Positions 41,001-50,803 of a stretch of 64,000 nt of DNA are shown piece by piece; positions within the stretch are counted from its first letter, which is position 1; the number at the start of each line of letters is the position of its first letter. The translations under genes were made by a program, and so were the position numbers. The notes beneath the pieces were generated by a model. It searched no databases and was not told the DNA's origin. It worked only from the letters and a program-made list of their open reading frames with translations. Source of the DNA: Sedimentisphaerales bacterium (GTDB lineage Bacteria > Planctomycetota > Phycisphaerae > Sedimentisphaerales > Anaerobacaceae); the NCBI GenBank assembly GCA_016931715.1, contig JAFGEF010000017.1, positions 1-64,000 of the forward strand, in the 5' to 3' direction.

Positions 41001-42542
41001 ATGAAAAATTCTGTTTTCGCAGTCCTCGCATTATGTTTTCTCTCATCAATTTGTACAGTTGCCGCGCAGGGAAATACACAACCGGCTCAAACGCGCAGGC
41101 CGGATGTTATCTATGTCCCTACACCGCAAAATGTAGTGGATAAGATGCTCGAACTGGCACAGGTCAAAAAAACCGACCTTGTTTATGACCTTGGCTGCGG
41201 CGATGGACGAATCGTGGTTACCGCCGCGAAAAAATACGGATGTAAGGCTGTGGGTTACGATATTGATCCTGACCGTATAAAAGAATCAAATGATAACGTA
41301 GCCAAAAACAATGTCTCTGACCTGGTAACGATAAAGCAGCAGGATATTTTTACGCTTGATTTAAGTAATGCAAATGTTATTACTTTATATTTGCTGCCAA
41401 GCCTGAATGTAAAGCTGATTCCTCAACTGGAAAAGCTTAAACCAGGCTCCCGGATTGTCTCGCATGATTTCGATATGGAAGGTGTTATACCTGACCAGGT
41501 AGTAGAAATTAAATCCGAAACTGGTTATGTTGAGCATACGATTTACTTCTGGACTACACCTTTGAAAAAACAATTGCGTGAGCCGGACGTAATTTATGTT
41601 CCCACGCCGCAGGATGTTGTCGATAAAATGCTTGAACTTGCCCAGGTTAAAAAGGATGACCTGGTTTATGACCTGGGCTGCGGAGACGGACGCATTGTAG
41701 TAACTGCCGCAAAAAAGTACGGATGCAAAGCAGTCGGATTTGATATTGATCCCAACAGGATTAAGGATTCGCTTGATAATGTGGCAAAGAACAATGTCTC
41801 TGACCTGGTTTCAATTGTACAGCAGGATATTTTTACCCTTGACCTGAGCAACGTGGATGTTGTGACACTTTATCTGCTTCCAAGCCTTAATGTCAAGCTT
41901 ATTCCCCAGCTTGAAAAACTCAAGCCCGGTGCAAGAATTGTCTCTCATAGTTTTGACATGGAAGGAGTTGAGCCGGACAAGGTTGTGACTGTTAAACCGA
42001 ATGATTCGAACTGGGAGCATACTGTTTATCTCTGGACTGCACCGATAACTAAATATCGCAAGCCGGATATACTTTATGTTCCTACACCGCAAAATGTGGT
42101 TGATAAAATGCTTGAAATGGCAAAAGTCAAAAAAACAGATTTGCTTTACGACTTAGGCTGCGGCGACGGACGAATCGTAGTTACCGCCGCACAGAAATAC
42201 GGCTGCAAAGCTGTTGGTTACGATATCGATCCCAATCGAATTAAAGAATCACGGGATAATGTCATAAAGAACAACGTCTCTGACCTGGTTATGATAAAAC
42301 AACAAGACATTTTTACACTCGACTTAAGTAATGTAGATGTTGTGACGCTTTATTTACTGCCGAGCCTGAATGTTAAGCTGATTCCGCAGTTGGAAAAGCT
42401 CAAACCCGGCTCGCGGATTGTCTCGCACGATTTCGATATGAAAGGCGTCATACCCGATGAAGTAATCACAATGACTCCCGGCGATGTCTATGGCGACCAT
42501 AAAGTATATCTATGGACTACGCCGCTTAAGAAGGAGAAATGA
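41001..42542 (+). CDS. Secreted protein with three tandem SAM-methyltransferase domains
   Basis: 513 aa. AAAGGAG precedes ATG 41001. A signal peptide ends '...SICTVAAQG'. Three near-identical domains begin at about residues 34, 195 and 355 (period about 160), each starting 'PD(V/I)(I/L)YVPTPQ(N/D)VVDKM' and carrying SAM motif I 'YDLGCGDGRIVVTAA', the acidic 'GYDIDP(D/N)RIK', 'QQDIFTLDLSN' and 'SRIVSHDFDM'. Every copy keeps motif I, so none is obviously dead. Single-domain versions exist as secreted or cytosolic proteins; the triplication is unusual. A periplasmic methyltransferase would need exported SAM, so binding or another activity is possible. A Tat lipoprotein gene follows by 9 bp. Confidence 0.88.
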   Translation: MKNSVFAVLALCFLSSICTVAAQGNTQPAQTRRPDVIYVPTPQNVVDKMLELAQVKKTDLVYDLGCGDGRIVVTAAKKYGCKAVGYDIDPDRIKESNDNVAKNNVSDLVTIKQQDIFTLDLSNANVITLYLLPSLNVKLIPQLEKLKPGSRIVSHDFDMEGVIPDQVVEIKSETGYVEHTIYFWTTPLKKQLREPDVIYVPTPQDVVDKMLELAQVKKDDLVYDLGCGDGRIVVTAAKKYGCKAVGFDIDPNRIKDSLDNVAKNNVSDLVSIVQQDIFTLDLSNVDVVTLYLLPSLNVKLIPQLEKLKPGARIVSHSFDMEGVEPDKVVTVKPNDSNWEHTVYLWTAPITKYRKPDILYVPTPQNVVDKMLEMAKVKKTDLLYDLGCGDGRIVVTAAQKYGCKAVGYDIDPNRIKESRDNVIKNNVSDLVMIKQQDIFTLDLSNVDVVTLYLLPSLNVKLIPQLEKLKPGSRIVSHDFDMKGVIPDEVITMTPGDVYGDHKVYLWTTPLKKEK

Positions 42543-43665: not shown

Positions 43666-46600
43666 ATGATGATATCGTTTTTTCGTCGCTCTAAGCTGTG
43701 GGCGATTGAAGAAAAATCCTTGCTGCGGATTCTGCGTCAGAAAGTATCTCCCGAAATTAAAAATGTTGAACTCGAAAGGAGATTTCTTGTCGATTCAGTC
43801 CGGCCGCTGTCAAACGATGAGCAGGACAAGCTCAAATGGCTCCTGAAAGAAACGTTCGAGCAGGAATTATTCGATGAGCAGTCTATGCTCAAAACTCCTG
43901 TTTTAGAAGTCGGGCCAAGACTTGCGATAGTTACTCCGGGCAGCACAAACGCTGTTTCTATTTGTTCCGCCTGCGGGCTGGATTCCATAAAAAGAATCGA
44001 GCAGACAAGACGCTTGTCCATACAGATGGCAAACAACGCCGCTATTTCGCAGGAGCAGATTGATAAGATATATGCGATAGTTCACGACAGAATGACAGAA
44101 ATGCCCTATTTGGAAGTGCCTTCGACTTTTGAGCATGATGCACAACCAGAACCCATAAGACTAATCAACCTTCTGGAAAATGGAATCGATGTACTCAAAC
44201 AAGCCAATGAAACGCTCGGACTTGCTCTTGATAAACAGATGATGGAGTATGTCTTCGGTCATTACAGTAAAATCGGCCGCAACCCAACAGATGTCGAATT
44301 GTTCATGTTCGGCCAGCTCAACTCCGAGCATTGCCGCCATCATTTATTCAACGGCAACTTTGTTATTGACGGCAAACGAATGAAAAACAGCCTGTTCGAC
44401 ATGGTAAAATCGACTACAAAAGCTAACGCGGGAAACATCACTGTAGCTTACAAGGACAACGCCGCTGTTACTTTGGGCAGACCTGTCAAAATGTTCTATC
44501 CGTCCGACCCGGTAAATCCATCACTTTTCAAAACCAAGCAGGCTAACATAAGCGATACATTCAAGGTCGAGACTCATAATCACCCGACAACCGTCAGCGC
44601 ACATCCCGGCGCAGGAACTGGTCTGGGCGGCAATATACGTGACATTCAGGGCGTGGGCAGAGGCGGAACCGTCCTCGGCGCACTGGCAATTTATAACGTT
44701 GCGAATCTTCTCATCAGCGGCTACGAACTGCCATGGGAAAAAGAATACGCGCCACATCCATCGCGTTTCCAGACGCCGCTCGAAATCATCATCGAAGCCT
44801 CGAACGGAGCCAGCGACTACGGCAATAAGTTCGGTGTCCCGCTCACTACAGGCTCATGCACATCATTCGAGCTGATTATCGCCGGCGGCGAGCATTACGG
44901 CTGGAAAAAAACCTGCATGGTCGCGGGAAACTGGGGAGTTATAAATGAACAGCACGCGCATAAAAAAGAACTTAAAAAAGACTTCATAATCGTCCAAATC
45001 GGCGGAGACAGATACCCAATCGGACTAGGCGGCGGCTCCGGCTCGAGCAAGGACGCAGGAGGCCAGCAGGCAGACCTCGATTTCGATTCCGTACAGAGAG
45101 CAAATCCCGAAATGGAAAACCGCAACGAATCCGTAATACGTGCCTGTGCTGAACTTGGAAGCAAATCGCCGATTGTCAGTATGACAGACCTCGGCGCAGG
45201 CGGCGAATGTGTCGCCCTGCCGGAGATTGTCGATCCCTACGGCGCGAAATATGAGTTGAGAAATATTCCATGCGGCGATAAAACCATGAGCGTACTTGTC
45301 TATTGGTGCAACGAGTCGCAGGAAAGCATGGTAATGATTATCAAAAAGCAGTCGCAGGGAATTCTCGAGCAGATTTGCAGAAGAAACCGCTGCCCGATGT
45401 ACATCATCGGCACAGTTTCAAACGACGGCCAACTGATACTTACAGACAAGGACGCACCGCAAAACGCACCGAGAGAGCAGAAAGTCCCTATCGATTTGGA
45501 CATGGAATTTCTGCTTGCGAATCTGCCTGAAATGAAAATCGAATGCAAGAGCAAGGCTCGCAAACTGAAGCCTTTGAAATTGCCGAAGAATTTATCTGTC
45601 TGCGATGCTCTCGATAGAGTTCTTCGCCTGCTTAAAGTCGGCTCCAAACATTTCCTCACAAGGAAAGTTGACCGTTCAGTCGGAGGCTTGAGCGCTCGTC
45701 AGCAAACAGTCGGTCCGCTCCAGCTTACAATTGCGGATTGTGCCGTAACTGCAAGGAGTTTCTTTGAAACGACAGGAATTGCCACAGCGATAGGCGAGCA
45801 GCCTGTCAAAGGTCTCATCGAAACGCAGGCCGGCGGAAGGATGAGCCTCGCCGAAGCACTTACAAATCTGGTCTGGGCTCCGATAGAAGATTTTTCTTCG
45901 ATAAATTTCTCAGCGACATGGCAATGGCCATGCAAGCAGCCGGGAGAAGACGAGCGGCTTTATAAAACTGTGAAATCAACAACGGATTTATGCAAATCTC
46001 TCGGCCTGCGAATACCGGTCGGAAAAGATTCTGTTTCCATGACTGCATGGACAACGCTAAATGGCAAAAAACATCCAATAAAGTCACCCGGCTCGGTTCA
46101 GATAGTAAGCTGTGCCCCATGTTCAGATATAACAAAGGTCATCACTCCTGATATTAAAAAACCGTCCGAAAGCGTGTCGCGGGCATCTTGCCCGCGTATT
46201 CGAGGACGGGACGCCCAAGACACAAGCGTTCTGATTATGCTTGACCTTGCAGGAGGCAAAAAACGGCTTGGCGGCTCGGCTCTCGCCCAGGTCTATGAGC
46301 AGCTTGGCAATGAAACTCCCGATGTTCATTCAGCAAAACTATTGAAAAACGGTTTTGAAGCAGTCCAGAAATTAATAAAAGATGGTCTCATTCTTTCAGG
46401 CCATGATGTTTCCGAAGGCGGCCTTGTCACATGCCTGCTTGAAATGGCATTTGCAGGCAACTGCGGCCTCGATATAGACATAACTAAAATCTCAAACAAC
46501 GTTCTTGCATCGCTTTTCGCAGAAGAATCAACGCTCGTATTCGAAGTTCCTGAGAGCAATCTGAAAGAGGTCGAAAAGAGCCTCAAAAAATTCGGCTTCA

Positions 46601-47661
46601 AGTTCGACATAAATGCTTTCGTTCTCGGCAAGGCAACTGTCGAGCATCAAATTATAATTAAGCATAAAAACAAAGAAGTCCTCTCTGCCGACATGAAGCA
46701 ACTGCGTGACATATGGCAGGACACTTCATTCCGGCTCGATATGCTTCAGGCTAATCCTGACTGCGTGCAGGCTGAGCGCAAAGTCAATTACGACCGAAAA
46801 GGATTGAACTTTAGTCTTTCCTTCGAGCCTGCTCCCACTCCGAAGGAAAAGTTAAATTCCAGAAACAAGCCGAAAATCGCTGTTCTCCGCGAGGCAGGTA
46901 CAAACGGCGCACGAGAAATGGCGGGAGCGTTCTACGCCGCAGGCTTCGAGACGTGGGATGTCACTATGGCGGATATCGCCGAAGGCAGAATAAGCCTGAA
47001 AGATTTTCGAGGCATAGCGTTCTCCGGCGGTTTCAGCTTCGCGGACACTCTCGATGCGGGCAAAGGCTGGGCGGGCGTTATCCAATTCAACGATAAGATT
47101 CGCAAAGAATTCGATGCCTTCATCGAGCGAAACGACACGTTCTCTCTGGGCGTCTGCAACGGCTGCCAGGTAATGGCTCTGCTCGGCTGGATTCCCTGGC
47201 GAGGGATAGAGCTTTCACATCAGCCGCGCTTCGTGAAAAACGAATCGGGAATTTTCGAGTCGCGTTTCGTCTCAGTGAAAATCGAGCCGGGTCCGTCAAT
47301 CTTTCTAAAGGGAATGGAAGGCTCAAGACTCGGTATCTGGGTCGCTCACGGCGAAGGACGATGCTTCTGGCCCGATGAAAAAATACTCGAGCAGGTTACA
47401 AAGAACGAACCGGGACTTGCACCGATACGCTACGTCGATGATTCCGGCGAACAAACTGAAGCCTATCCATTCAATCCGAACGGCTCGCAGTTAGGCATTA
47501 CCGCCCTATCGTCTCGCGACGGCAGACACATGGTTCTCATGCCCCACCCGGAAAGATTATTCAATCTCTGGCAATGGCCATATTTACCTGATGATTGGAA
47601 AAACCTGAAAGCCTCACCCTGGCTCAAACTCTTCCAAAACGCCAGAGTTTGGTGTGAATAA
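43666..47661 (+). CDS. purL: Phosphoribosylformylglycinamidine synthase (single-chain PurL)
   Basis: Fourth step of purine synthesis: FGAR + ATP + Gln to FGAM. 1331 aa, the large fused form. N-terminal PurS-like region, linker 'FGQLNSEHCRHHLFNG', first AIRS-like domain 'KVETHNHPTTVSAHPGAGTG', second with 'VSMTDLGAGGECVALPE' and 'GRMSLAEALTNL', and the C-terminal class I glutaminase with 'LGVCNGCQVMALLGW' (Cys nucleophile) and 'MPHPERLF' (His). RBS AAAGAAAGG. Oddity: between 'TPDIKKPSE' and 'SVLIMLDLAGG' an 18-residue insert 'SVSRASCPRIRGRDAQDT' is encoded by a palindromic repeat with a 6-bp duplication. The frame is intact. Confidence 0.97.
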   Translation: MMISFFRRSKLWAIEEKSLLRILRQKVSPEIKNVELERRFLVDSVRPLSNDEQDKLKWLLKETFEQELFDEQSMLKTPVLEVGPRLAIVTPGSTNAVSICSACGLDSIKRIEQTRRLSIQMANNAAISQEQIDKIYAIVHDRMTEMPYLEVPSTFEHDAQPEPIRLINLLENGIDVLKQANETLGLALDKQMMEYVFGHYSKIGRNPTDVELFMFGQLNSEHCRHHLFNGNFVIDGKRMKNSLFDMVKSTTKANAGNITVAYKDNAAVTLGRPVKMFYPSDPVNPSLFKTKQANISDTFKVETHNHPTTVSAHPGAGTGLGGNIRDIQGVGRGGTVLGALAIYNVANLLISGYELPWEKEYAPHPSRFQTPLEIIIEASNGASDYGNKFGVPLTTGSCTSFELIIAGGEHYGWKKTCMVAGNWGVINEQHAHKKELKKDFIIVQIGGDRYPIGLGGGSGSSKDAGGQQADLDFDSVQRANPEMENRNESVIRACAELGSKSPIVSMTDLGAGGECVALPEIVDPYGAKYELRNIPCGDKTMSVLVYWCNESQESMVMIIKKQSQGILEQICRRNRCPMYIIGTVSNDGQLILTDKDAPQNAPREQKVPIDLDMEFLLANLPEMKIECKSKARKLKPLKLPKNLSVCDALDRVLRLLKVGSKHFLTRKVDRSVGGLSARQQTVGPLQLTIADCAVTARSFFETTGIATAIGEQPVKGLIETQAGGRMSLAEALTNLVWAPIEDFSSINFSATWQWPCKQPGEDERLYKTVKSTTDLCKSLGLRIPVGKDSVSMTAWTTLNGKKHPIKSPGSVQIVSCAPCSDITKVITPDIKKPSESVSRASCPRIRGRDAQDTSVLIMLDLAGGKKRLGGSALAQVYEQLGNETPDVHSAKLLKNGFEAVQKLIKDGLILSGHDVSEGGLVTCLLEMAFAGNCGLDIDITKISNNVLASLFAEESTLVFEVPESNLKEVEKSLKKFGFKFDINAFVLGKATVEHQIIIKHKNKEVLSADMKQLRDIWQDTSFRLDMLQANPDCVQAERKVNYDRKGLNFSLSFEPAPTPKEKLNSRNKPKIAVLREAGTNGAREMAGAFYAAGFETWDVTMADIAEGRISLKDFRGIAFSGGFSFADTLDAGKGWAGVIQFNDKIRKEFDAFIERNDTFSLGVCNGCQVMALLGWIPWRGIELSHQPRFVKNESGIFESRFVSVKIEPGPSIFLKGMEGSRLGIWVAHGEGRCFWPDEKILEQVTKNEPGLAPIRYVDDSGEQTEAYPFNPNGSQLGITALSSRDGRHMVLMPHPERLFNLWQWPYLPDDWKNLKASPWLKLFQNARVWCE
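46170..46229. repeat. In-frame palindromic insertion in purL, with 6-bp direct repeats
   Basis: AAGCGT (46170-46175) is repeated at 46224-46229. Removing one copy and the 48 bp between (54 bp, 18 codons) restores the uninterrupted reading 'KKPSESVLIMLDL'. The inserted DNA contains the hairpin CGCGGG-catcttg-CCCGCG (46178-46196) inside an outer GTGTC...GACAC (46174-46223). It encodes Arg/Ser-rich residues not expected in PurL. Confidence 0.85.
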
Positions 47662-47753: not shown

Positions 47754-48566
47754 TTATTTGTATATTTTCAGATTCGGCAGAGCTTTTTGCAATTCATCAA
47801 CCTGCTGGTCCGAAATATTATTACAATCTCTTATATAAAACTCTCGCAGATTGGTTAATCCTTTGATAGGATCAAGATTTGAAATCTTGGTATAACTGAC
47901 ATAAAGTGACTGCAGATTTTTCAGGTTTTTGACGAGTTTGATTTCAAAACTTTTTATATTATTAATACGAAGAATTTCAAGTTTGTTTAACTTCTTTATA
48001 TATTTAAGGTTGGGTATCTGGATTTGTCTCGTTAATTGTTCACTTCCAAGTGAAAACTCTTTAAGATTTTTAAATGATAAAAGAGGTTTCAAGCTTTCAA
48101 TATCAGTATTATGAATTTTGAGTATTTGAAGTTTTTGAAGATTTGTAAGAGGGCTTAAATCAAGCACGCCCCAGTCCGGTTGTTTTATAATTCGACAAGA
48201 TACAAGAAAAGCTTTCCCCGTAGGTAAATCCGGTTGCGGCACTTTAATATTTTCGAGATATAATTTCTGAAGATTGGGAAATTTCATAATGTACTTGATA
48301 TGAGAGAGCGTTTTGTTACTAATCTCAAGTTCAGTTATTTTTACAAAGTCATCTTCTGTAAGTTCCAACCAGTCTTTATTGAGCGTTTTGGCAACCGCCT
48401 GACGAATAAAAACCTCTTCGCCCGGGATAGGCTCATCAAGATGGACATTAGAACCCCACGTTAAAAATCTGTAAATAAATACTGCAATAACAACACAAAG
48501 AAAGATAACAGCAGCAATTATGCATTTTGAACGAGATGTTTTTATTTGAGTGTAATTCATATTCAT
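47754..48566 (-). CDS. Membrane-anchored LRR protein (third of tandem set)
   Basis: 270 aa. Single N-terminal helix ('CIIAAVIFLCVVIAVFIYRFL'), cap region 'QAVAKTLNKDWLELTEDDF', then fewer and less regular LRRs than its neighbours ('TNLQKLQILKIHNTDIESL'), and the end cap 'CNNISDQQVDELQKALPNLKI'. The start ATG overlaps the stop of the upstream paralogue as ATGA, so it is translationally coupled. The least repeat-rich member of the family in this window. Confidence 0.82.
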   Translation of the reverse strand: MNMNYTQIKTSRSKCIIAAVIFLCVVIAVFIYRFLTWGSNVHLDEPIPGEEVFIRQAVAKTLNKDWLELTEDDFVKITELEISNKTLSHIKYIMKFPNLQKLYLENIKVPQPDLPTGKAFLVSCRIIKQPDWGVLDLSPLTNLQKLQILKIHNTDIESLKPLLSFKNLKEFSLGSEQLTRQIQIPNLKYIKKLNKLEILRINNIKSFEIKLVKNLKNLQSLYVSYTKISNLDPIKGLTNLREFYIRDCNNISDQQVDELQKALPNLKIYK

Positions 48567-49729
48567 CGTTCAATTATCAGGTTTGGGAGTGCTTTTTGCA
48601 AGTCTTCTACCTGCTGGTCTGTTATGTTCTCAGTTTCTTTCAAATAAAGATTTTGCAAATTTGTGAGATTATGGAGCGGCGTAAGGTCAGAGATAGAAGT
48701 ATTGTTAATACAAAGGCTGGTTAATTTTGTCAGGTATTTTATCGGTTCCAAATCACTAATGGGTGTTTGGTCCAAATTAAGACTTTCTAAGTTAATTAAT
48801 CTCTTGAGCTGTTCGAGGTCGGTTATTTGGGTGTTGTAAAGAAGAAGCGTTTTAAGATTAGTCATTTCCTTTATATGGCCGAGATATGATATTTTGATAT
48901 TAGCAACGTTAAGATAAGTTAGATTTTTAAGATCTTTGATTGGCTCAAAATCGGTTATCTGTGTTTGGTTAAGGTCAAGGTTTTGCAATTTTGTTAAATT
49001 TCTCAAAGGCTCGATACTGGTTATTTTTGTTGATTCTAAAAGAAGTGATTGTAAATTAACGAGCTCTTTTACAGGATCAAGCTCTGATAAATTACATCGT
49101 ATAACCGCAAGATTTCTGAGGTTTGTTAATTTACTTAAGGGTCTGATATCAGTTATATAAGTCCCGCAAAGCGCAAGACTCTCCAGGTTAGAGAGATTTG
49201 AGAGTGGTCCAATATTTTTAAAGGGTGCAAAATCAATAACAAATGTCCGAAGGTTATCAAGTTTCGAAATAGGGCTCAAATCAATAAAAAATCTTTCCTC
49301 AATATCGATAATGCCTGTTTTTGCTAATATTTTAATCCATTTAGGTTTTGCTTTTTCAGAAAAACGGATATGTGCTATATATAGTGTCTGTAGATTCGTG
49401 AATTTCTCAAGCATTTTGATTTCTGTGATTTCATCAAAATTAGCTTTATTGATAACACCTGAAAACTCAAGCAGTTTTGCAGGAATATAAAGCTTTGTTA
49501 TTTTAGCGAAATCTTCGCCGTTAAGTTCATTGGGCTCTTTATTTAGAACATATGCCGCTGCTTCTCGAATAATTTTTTCGCTTACGGTGTCGGGTTTTGG
49601 CTTCCAATTCAATAGCCAAAAAGCAAAGACAATTACTATTAGGAGAAGGAAAATCCCAGCCGTAATTATATTTCGCGTTCGCGAATATTTATTTTGAATT
49701 TTGTTTTTCTGTTCTTTTGTTTCATCCAT
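48563..49729 (-). CDS. Membrane-anchored LRR protein (second of tandem set)
   Basis: 388 aa. A short basic N-terminus and one helix ('IITAGIFLLLIVIVFAFWLL'), cap 'AAAYVLNKEPNELNGEDFA', a non-LRR stretch with 'LAKTGIIDIEERFFIDLSPI', about nine internalin-type LRRs ('LRNLTKLQNLDLNQTQITDF'), and end cap 'ENITDQQVEDLQKALPNL'. Only 3 bp separate it from the upstream paralogue and it overlaps the downstream one by 4 bp, so all three form an operon. Confidence 0.85.
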   Translation of the reverse strand: MDETKEQKNKIQNKYSRTRNIITAGIFLLLIVIVFAFWLLNWKPKPDTVSEKIIREAAAYVLNKEPNELNGEDFAKITKLYIPAKLLEFSGVINKANFDEITEIKMLEKFTNLQTLYIAHIRFSEKAKPKWIKILAKTGIIDIEERFFIDLSPISKLDNLRTFVIDFAPFKNIGPLSNLSNLESLALCGTYITDIRPLSKLTNLRNLAVIRCNLSELDPVKELVNLQSLLLESTKITSIEPLRNLTKLQNLDLNQTQITDFEPIKDLKNLTYLNVANIKISYLGHIKEMTNLKTLLLYNTQITDLEQLKRLINLESLNLDQTPISDLEPIKYLTKLTSLCINNTSISDLTPLHNLTNLQNLYLKETENITDQQVEDLQKALPNLIIER

Positions 49730-49732
49730 TTT

Positions 49733-50803
49733 TTATCTTTCTATTTTCAGATTCGGCAAAGCTTTTTGTAAATCCTCTACCATTTTATCCGTTGTATTGG
49801 GACATTCCCTTAAATAAAGAGAATTAAGGTTTGTTAATTCCTTCAAAGATTCAAGATCAGATACATGAGTCATGGTTAAATAAAGTTCTTGCAAATTAGT
49901 TAATTCCTTTAATGGCTTAATGTCGGATATCTGTATGAATTCAAGGTGAAGTATTTGCAGGTTTATTAATTTCTTCAAAGGTCCAATATCAGATACCTGA
50001 GTTCTGGTCAAATTAAGTTGCTGCAAATTGGTTAAATCCTCTAATGGCTTAAGGTCGGATATCTGTGTGCCATTAAGTTTAAGTATTTGCAGGTTCGTTA
50101 ATTTTTTCAAAGGTTCGAGATCAGATACCTTAGTCTTGCTCAAGTATAGTTCTTGCAAATTAGTTAAATCCTCTAAAGGCTTAAGGTCGGATATTTGTGT
50201 GTTTTCAAGATGAAGTATTCGCAGGTTTATTAATTCCTTTAGCGGTTTAAAATCAGATACCTTAGCACTGCCAAGCCAAAGCGTTTGGAGGTTTTTTAGT
50301 TCCTTTAATTTCTCAATATGACTAATCTGACAATTCACAGCTATAAGAGTTTTTAGATTGGATAGATTCTCTAAAGGACTTAAATCAATGGGAATTCTAA
50401 TTGCTGGATCAATGATACCCAATTTATATAATATTAATTTCCATGTCGGTATAGTATTTACATAAACTTGACCTTTGGTAGATATAAAAAGCTTTTGCAA
50501 ATTCGTAAATTTATCAAGAAGCTTTATGTCGGTAATTTCTGAATCTTCAATCAAAAGTTCATTAATTGTCGCAAAATCTTCGTCCGTCAATTCGTTTGGG
50601 TCTTTATTAAGTTGTTTGGCAGCTATTTTACGAATTATTATTTTGCTTTGTTTTTGAGATTCATAGTAAACATGAGTATATGTCATTACCCAATAAACAT
50701 ATCCGGCAAGAACACAAAGAATAATACAAGCAGCGATTATGTATTTTCTGCGTGATGGTTTCTTTTCATCCGTTTGATTTTGTAATGTTTTTTCGTTTTT
50801 CAT
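49733..50803 (-). CDS. Membrane-anchored LRR protein (first of tandem set)
   Basis: 356 aa. N-terminal helix ('YIIAACIILCVLAGYVYWVM'), cap 'IAAKQLNKDPNELTDEDFA', segment 'LYKLGIIDPAIRIPIDLSPL', then eight highly regular LRRs. Neighbouring repeats are nearly identical as 44-residue doublets ('DLKPLEDLTNLQ' alternating with 'DLEPLKKLTNLQ'), suggesting recent duplication within the gene. End cap 'CPNTTDKMVEDLQKALPNLKI'. It heads the three-gene LRR operon. Predicted to present its LRR face outside the cytoplasmic membrane. Confidence 0.87.
   Translation of the reverse strand: MKNEKTLQNQTDEKKPSRRKYIIAACIILCVLAGYVYWVMTYTHVYYESQKQSKIIIRKIAAKQLNKDPNELTDEDFATINELLIEDSEITDIKLLDKFTNLQKLFISTKGQVYVNTIPTWKLILYKLGIIDPAIRIPIDLSPLENLSNLKTLIAVNCQISHIEKLKELKNLQTLWLGSAKVSDFKPLKELINLRILHLENTQISDLKPLEDLTNLQELYLSKTKVSDLEPLKKLTNLQILKLNGTQISDLKPLEDLTNLQQLNLTRTQVSDIGPLKKLINLQILHLEFIQISDIKPLKELTNLQELYLTMTHVSDLESLKELTNLNSLYLRECPNTTDKMVEDLQKALPNLKIER

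Follow-up and report, generated by a model that had tools for sequence, protein, structure and literature searches.

A REP doublet inserted in frame in purL of a Sedimentisphaerales bacterium and a related RAYT embedded in valyl-tRNA synthetase

The purL gene of a Sedimentisphaerales bacterium raises the question of how a palindromic repeat has come to lie inside a protein gene that can still be read through, and what has moved it there. The gene is located in a 64,000-nucleotide stretch of contig JAFGEF010000017.1 (the window), and its 1331-codon open reading frame, coding for 1331 amino acids, is intact despite the insert. The original prediction, made from the letters alone, described an in-frame addition of 54 bp with a 6-bp target duplication and proposed a protein-invading repeat analogous to the Rickettsia palindromic elements.

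The insert in purL and its empty site

Positions 46170-46229 read AAGC-GTGTCGCGGGCATCTTGCCCGCG-TATT-CGAGGACGGGACGCCCAAGACAC-AAGCGT. The two PurL genes of the same genus, those of G018 (the closest relative, 87% PurL identity) and G052 (76% identity), have been compared, and the 18 additional residues are absent in both, as had been predicted. The clean empty site is that of the closer one, G018, where the sequence is AAAAAACCGGGCGAAAGCGTTCTGGTTATG, exactly 54 bp shorter and with a single AAGCGT. The 54-bp in-frame addition is therefore real, and it is an insertion polymorphism, filled here and empty in G018. Elsewhere in the family, PurL is distant (~25–39% identity) and in most cases separate from its glutaminase part, and the same 18 residues have not been found in distant PurL, which favors an insertion. 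On alignment with solved PurL structures (9n9w and the 1t3t group), the insert is positioned in a short turn, which fits the surface loop that had been expected. Among the family genomes searched, the long fused PurL is restricted to this genus, and the distant, mostly split forms in the rest of the family suggest that it may have been acquired by transfer.

The predicted AAGCGT duplication is present on both sides of a 48-bp core, but the last two bases of its left copy are the first bases of the GTGT that opens the repeat. The informative direct repeat is AAGC (4 bp), which surrounds a 50-bp element (Table 1). The only forward match of the 19-mer in the window is the purL copy, with 0.01 matches expected. 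Elsewhere in the window, a 513-aa ORF (41001-42542) consists of three tandem methyltransferase-like domain copies of ~160 aa each, and several adjacent leucine-rich-repeat type ORFs made of 66-bp repeats are located on the minus strand (47754-50770).

Table 1. Features of purL and its insert, in positions of the window
Feature	Position	Strand	Basis
purL, phosphoribosylformylglycinamidine synthase, long fused form (host gene)	43666..47661	+	ORF, PDB matches 9n9w/1t3t, Pfam domains, relatives
REPIN (inverted REP doublet), 50 bp; codes for VSRASCPRIRGRDAQDT including flanks	46174..46223	+	family members, G018 empty site
REP unit 1: GTGT tetranucleotide (46174-46177) and hairpin CGCGGGCATCTTGCCCGCG (46178-46196)	46174..46196	+	exact 23-mer, single-strand fold
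REP unit 2, inverted, decayed: CGAGGACGGGACGCCCAAGACAC; intact relatives have CGAGGGCGAGACGCCCTCGACAC	46201..46223	-	doublet comparison, weak fold
Left flanking direct repeat AAGC (AAGCGT counting the first two REP bases)	46170..46173	+	single copy in empty site
Right flanking direct repeat AAGCGT	46224..46229	+	single copy in empty site

The repeat family and its copies in other proteins

The 15-base core of the repeat, CGGGCATCTTGCCCG, is present in 64 exact copies in the 4.55-Mb genome, and a reversed control gives 0. The finding of further cores favors an insertion in purL. Together with the other genes that are occupied and the empty site of G018, it bears out the prediction of a dispersed palindrome that inserts in frame. 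The family unit is GTRT (sometimes GTAG) followed by CGMGGGCNNNNNGCCCKCG, and the foot of the purL copy, GTGT, departs from the canonical GTAG. With one mismatch allowed, the generic unit has 70 forward and 71 reverse matches, some of them counted on both strands. Inverted doublets such as GTGTCGCGGGCATCCTGCCCGCG-AAT-CGAGGGCGAGACGCCCTCGACAC are common; 22 have been counted in this genome and 51 elsewhere. The layout of the purL copy is GTGT and a hairpin, a spacer, and a decayed inverted hairpin with ACAC. Intact doublets form two strong hairpins (fold z of about -8), while the purL copy (-2.6) retains an intact first hairpin and a decayed second one; given this decay, the purL REPIN may not be very recent. 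A narrow doublet pattern matched the purL copy alone because the doublets vary in spacer length and arm sequence. A contig scan for the purL 23-mer matched at least 95 stretches; almost every one is labeled as Sedimentisphaerales, Phycisphaerales, Phycisphaerae or Planctomycetota, and one belongs to an Acidobacteria bin.

As judged from its sequence, the purL element is a REP doublet (REPIN) with a GTRT/GTAG tag. Its family shows a palindrome of ~20–60 bp with a tetranucleotide foot, a high copy number, inverted pairing with hairpins, and a RAYT bordered by the REP. REPs owe their name to an extragenic location. The family is not mainly extragenic, either in this genome or elsewhere, and extragenic location is treated here as typical of REPINs and not as defining, since exceptions are known (PMC3733652). 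In-frame REPs have already been described, with Opitutus terrae and R. conorii as the main examples (PMC3733652), and the purL insert alone is a further case of a known kind of element. The genome also contains a longer MITE-like family, AGAACCTCTAACAAAAAGAATC-[REP hairpin]-AAACATTACC...GCATCTTAAAAATTCATTTTGTTAGAGGCTCT, in which the REP hairpin is located between terminal inverted repeats (L004, L006, L007, L009-L015, L164, L166-L169, L182, L184-L188 and others). Of its recognized copies, 0 of 14 are within long ORFs.

A duplication of constant length has not been found around the 22 REPINs of this genome or the 51 elsewhere, and target duplication as a rule of the family is rejected on these two sets. 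Four of the 22 have at least three matching flanking bases (1.4 expected) and one has at least four (0.46 expected), so the 6-bp duplication fails as a family trait. Five of the 51 have at least three (1.1 expected), and there may be a slight excess of flanking matches. The other pairs of filled and empty sites show no clean duplication; codons have been replaced instead. The known chemistry of Y1 transposases leaves no duplication. The AAGC(GT) repeat at purL is not explained by this chemistry and may be due to chance.

Besides purL, REPs are found in frame at no fewer than 12 sites in 11 genes of this genome that have orthologues in G018 or G052, and most of these sites are empty or different in the two relatives. 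The hosts are an M56 peptidase (BlaR1-like), an ADP-forming acyl-CoA synthetase, an FAD/Fe-S oxidoreductase, MurF, homoserine dehydrogenase, an HhH-GPD repair enzyme, a sigma factor (C-terminal), a GNAT acetyltransferase, an SPFH-GYF protein, an FHA/TPR-like protein (labeled by eye), and valyl-tRNA synthetase (ValRS, two sites). None of the six frames of the hairpin contains a stop; they code for VSRASCPR, CRGHLAR and VAGILPA, and for RGQDARDT, SRARCPRH and AGKMPAT. Open frames that extend 100 codons or more to either side surround 16 of 55 REP units in this genome, compared to 39% of random positions, and 65 of 137 REP units in other genomes, compared to 58%. Genes are therefore hardly avoided by these REPs. 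The three REP 16-mers most frequent in P. fluorescens have 1,067 occurrences, of which only 14 overlap genes (PMC3116915).

Two of these sites, in the HhH-GPD repair enzyme and in the FHA/TPR-like gene, are also filled in G018, by a REP doublet with other hairpin arms that are still palindromic (L200 with L225; L202 with L237). The arms differ as if one REP had replaced another or gene conversion had occurred between them. G018 also contains a second in-frame repeat of the CGTCGCTCGT type (L239, L221, L227, L233), which codes for Ser/Asp/Glu/Arg-rich peptides. Some of the loops that it occupies hold REPs in the genome studied here, as though several kinds of invading repeat preferred these loops.

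A RAYT within valyl-tRNA synthetase

Five Y1-transposase matches have been identified in this genome, and for four of them no REP of the purL family is nearby in the stretches read. The fifth is part of a 480-aa frame that comprises the start of ValRS, a complete RAYT flanked by REP-coded peptides, and a tandem REP array; this GTATCGCGGGCATCTTGCCCGCG array adjoins the RAYT. It is the only REP-flanked RAYT found in the genome. The ValRS gene is split between two contigs: C166 ends in the REP array, and C81 starts in the same array and continues with the rest of ValRS, from which we infer that the two are joined. In G018, ValRS-RAYT-ValRS is a single ORF of 1268 aa on one contig, and G052 has a 1044-aa ValRS with no RAYT. 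A Pfam scan of the 1267-aa G018 protein detected tRNA synthetase-type domains and Y1_Tnp only, and no protein-splicing domain. The RAYT part matches the TnpAREP structure 4er8. An AlphaFold model of the ValRS-RAYT segment of L084 has a mean pLDDT of 34 from a two-row alignment and is uninformative.

The 161 genomes of the order contain 21 RAYTs at 54% identity or above, and all 21 are embedded in larger open frames; relatives at ~40% identity stand alone. Eighteen are hosted by ValRS at a single site, in 18 genomes of two families; one is hosted by NadE, between its two domains, and two by type ISP restriction enzymes (L334, L335 in G134, G130), at two different places of the enzyme. The ValRS site is the turn that precedes TVATTRPETMLGDT, where the editing domain starts; in the T. 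thermophilus structure 1gax it falls between residues 205 and 209. In G031, a run of N is located exactly at this site. All 21 RAYTs retain PNHVH and the tyrosine motif and have a length of 188–189 aa. They have no conserved start codon upstream and no stop of their own. Their dN is well below dS (e.g., 0.138 vs 1.59 between this genome and G018), indicating purifying selection.

The embedded RAYT is tied to the purL repeat by the REPs that border it. The exact purL 23-mer is present on both sides of the RAYT, in inverted orientation, in L074 (JAFGEJ010000162.1), and it is found beside the RAYT in G060 too. In L084 (PMYM01000161.1), the ValRS RAYT has GTGTCGCGGGCATCCTGCCCGCG twice upstream and CGCGGGCAAGATGCCCGCGACAC downstream; the exact 23-mer or a one-base variant adjoins the RAYT in L074, L084 and L254. 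Because the purL 23-mer borders the RAYT, the purL insert appears to be a REP-RAYT-REP unit that lacks the RAYT. REP density is 12.9 per Mb in the 16 RAYT-bearing genomes and 1.5 in the 53 genomes with an uninterrupted valS (p 4e-6, ignoring kinship). Within the genus, the REP counts are 143 and 47 with a RAYT and 1 without. The exceptions are G085, G086 and G056, which are rich in REPs and have a plain valS. From this association, we infer that the ValRS-embedded RAYT may mobilize purL-type REPINs.

The distribution of the RAYT is patchy. It is present in 16 of the 80 family genomes with a valS match, and along the ValRS tree it has been gained or lost no fewer than 10 times. One ValRS clade (support 94/80) contains G054, G007, G027, G052 and the second ValRS of G088. 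In the RAYT tree, G054 instead groups with G081, against this clade, and holding the RAYTs of G054, G007 and G027 together is rejected (AU p 1e-5, for a group chosen after the host tree was seen). RAYT and ValRS distances are partially correlated (Mantel r 0.35). By these comparisons, vertical descent, as for this genome with G018 and for G057 with G088, and renewed entry into the same site both appear compatible with the data. The G088 bin contains two ValRS genes (L314, L315), one with a RAYT and one without, and the second is either contamination (5%) or a real second copy.

Proposed explanation, rivals and known systems

Taken as a whole, the explanation that joins the purL REPIN, a high-copy REP family, in-frame gene invasion and the ValRS-embedded RAYT as the presumed mobilizer is considered likely. 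The RAYT would be produced as a part of ValRS, from the host promoter, and would cut and rejoin single-stranded REP or REPIN DNA, spreading the RAYT-less REPIN. One such REPIN would have entered purL after the split from the sister species. It would have survived there due to a net length that is a multiple of three, no stops in the frame used, and an exposed turn. Copies that break genes would be lost and copies in turns and linkers kept. Since the REP-RAYT-REP unit has no conserved start and no stop, it could persist only within the reading frame of a host gene, chiefly at one ValRS turn. We lean slightly toward a more specific proposal, in which a RAYT lineage with no start or stop of its own, carried as an in-frame passenger in ValRS, NadE and type ISP enzymes, enters valS horizontally at the same site, in the manner of an intein but without splicing, and seeds protein-invading REPINs, including that of purL.

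It is doubtful, yet well worth considering, that the REPINs are spread by another RAYT or enzyme, or by template switching and gene conversion, with the ValRS RAYT as a mere passenger. This reading gains from the REP-rich genomes with an uninterrupted valS and from the REPs that differ between species at one site as if exchanged (those of the repair enzyme and of the FHA/TPR-like gene). However, the embedded RAYT is the sole one in its genome found bordered by the REP family, and REP density follows it both across the family and within the genus. The ValRS RAYT could instead be immobile, a domain that has been domesticated, passes down vertically and serves the host, for example in editing or DNA repair. 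Its constant length, the purifying selection and the identical ValRS turn in 18 genomes agree with such a domain, but the patchy distribution with its many presence/absence changes, the same RAYT clade in NadE and type ISP enzymes, and the conflict between the RAYT and ValRS trees make domestication unlikely.

A classical MITE moved by a DDE transposase, whose staggered cut would have left a 4–6-bp target duplication in purL, is very unlikely. The AAGC(GT) on both sides of the purL insert would be accounted for, as would the slight excess of flanking repeats of three or more bases at other REPINs, and the same hairpin is found inside the terminal-inverted-repeat MITE-like family of the genome. 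On the other hand, neither set of REPINs shows a constant duplication, the other filled and empty pairs show replacement and not duplication, the REPIN ends match the REPs bordering a RAYT, and none of the recognized MITE-like copies is in a long ORF.

The system described here resembles the REPtrons, in which GTAG-tagged REPs and REPINs are associated with a RAYT (PMC3116915, PMC3733652, PMC6006769). The shared features are a GT-tetranucleotide foot, a short hairpin, inverted doublets, the copy number and a REP-bordered Y1 transposase. Unlike in the REPtrons, the foot is mostly GTGT/GTAT, genes are hardly avoided, and the RAYT, rather than being a gene of its own, is carried in frame within ValRS (or NadE and type ISP enzymes). 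The REPs found inside genes of Opitutus terrae and further species (PMC3733652) are likewise doublets in ORFs that add ~18–30 residues in frame; here, the filled and empty sites of sister species show the insertion directly, and the bordering RAYT is intragenic too. In TnpAREP subclass 2.4 (PMC6006769), REP and RAYT coding sequences also share one frame, but the REPs are inside a free RAYT gene, whereas here the RAYT and REPs are inside a host gene. The same survey discarded unexpectedly long fusion proteins (PMC6006769).

The Rickettsia palindromic elements (RPE) are similar in behavior, in that they too are palindromes carried in frame by unrelated protein-coding genes. The predicted analogy stands insofar as this lineage does have a protein-invading repeat, and fails insofar as the element is a REP doublet associated with a RAYT-type HUH transposase. 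By description, the RPE are set apart by another sequence, and by the two-hairpin REPIN layout and the RAYT association found here. Membership among them has not been adopted, as the tetranucleotide, the doublets and the RAYT fit REPINs. RPE-4 and RPE-6 of R. conorii have been equated with CGTC-tagged REPs, a class for which no dedicated transposase was found (PMC3733652).

No report of a RAYT or Y1 transposase inside a tRNA synthetase was found in the literature searched, mostly without subscription journals, and the stop-less RAYT housed in ValRS together with protein-invading REPINs is a previously unreported variant in that literature. These REPs occupy genes with little avoidance, and the filled and empty pairs of sister species reveal new protein segments arising. 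If the proposal is true, a transposase that exists only within an aminoacyl-tRNA synthetase would be an unusual route to the expression and inheritance of a selfish element, and it bears on the persistence of single-copy RAYTs. Inteins with homing endonucleases are alike in that an endonuclease-type protein is found in frame in an essential gene, at a recurrent site and with a patchy distribution. In contrast, the insert described here has no splicing domain (Pfam), has REP-coded peptides at its borders and would be expected to use single-strand HUH/Tyr chemistry.
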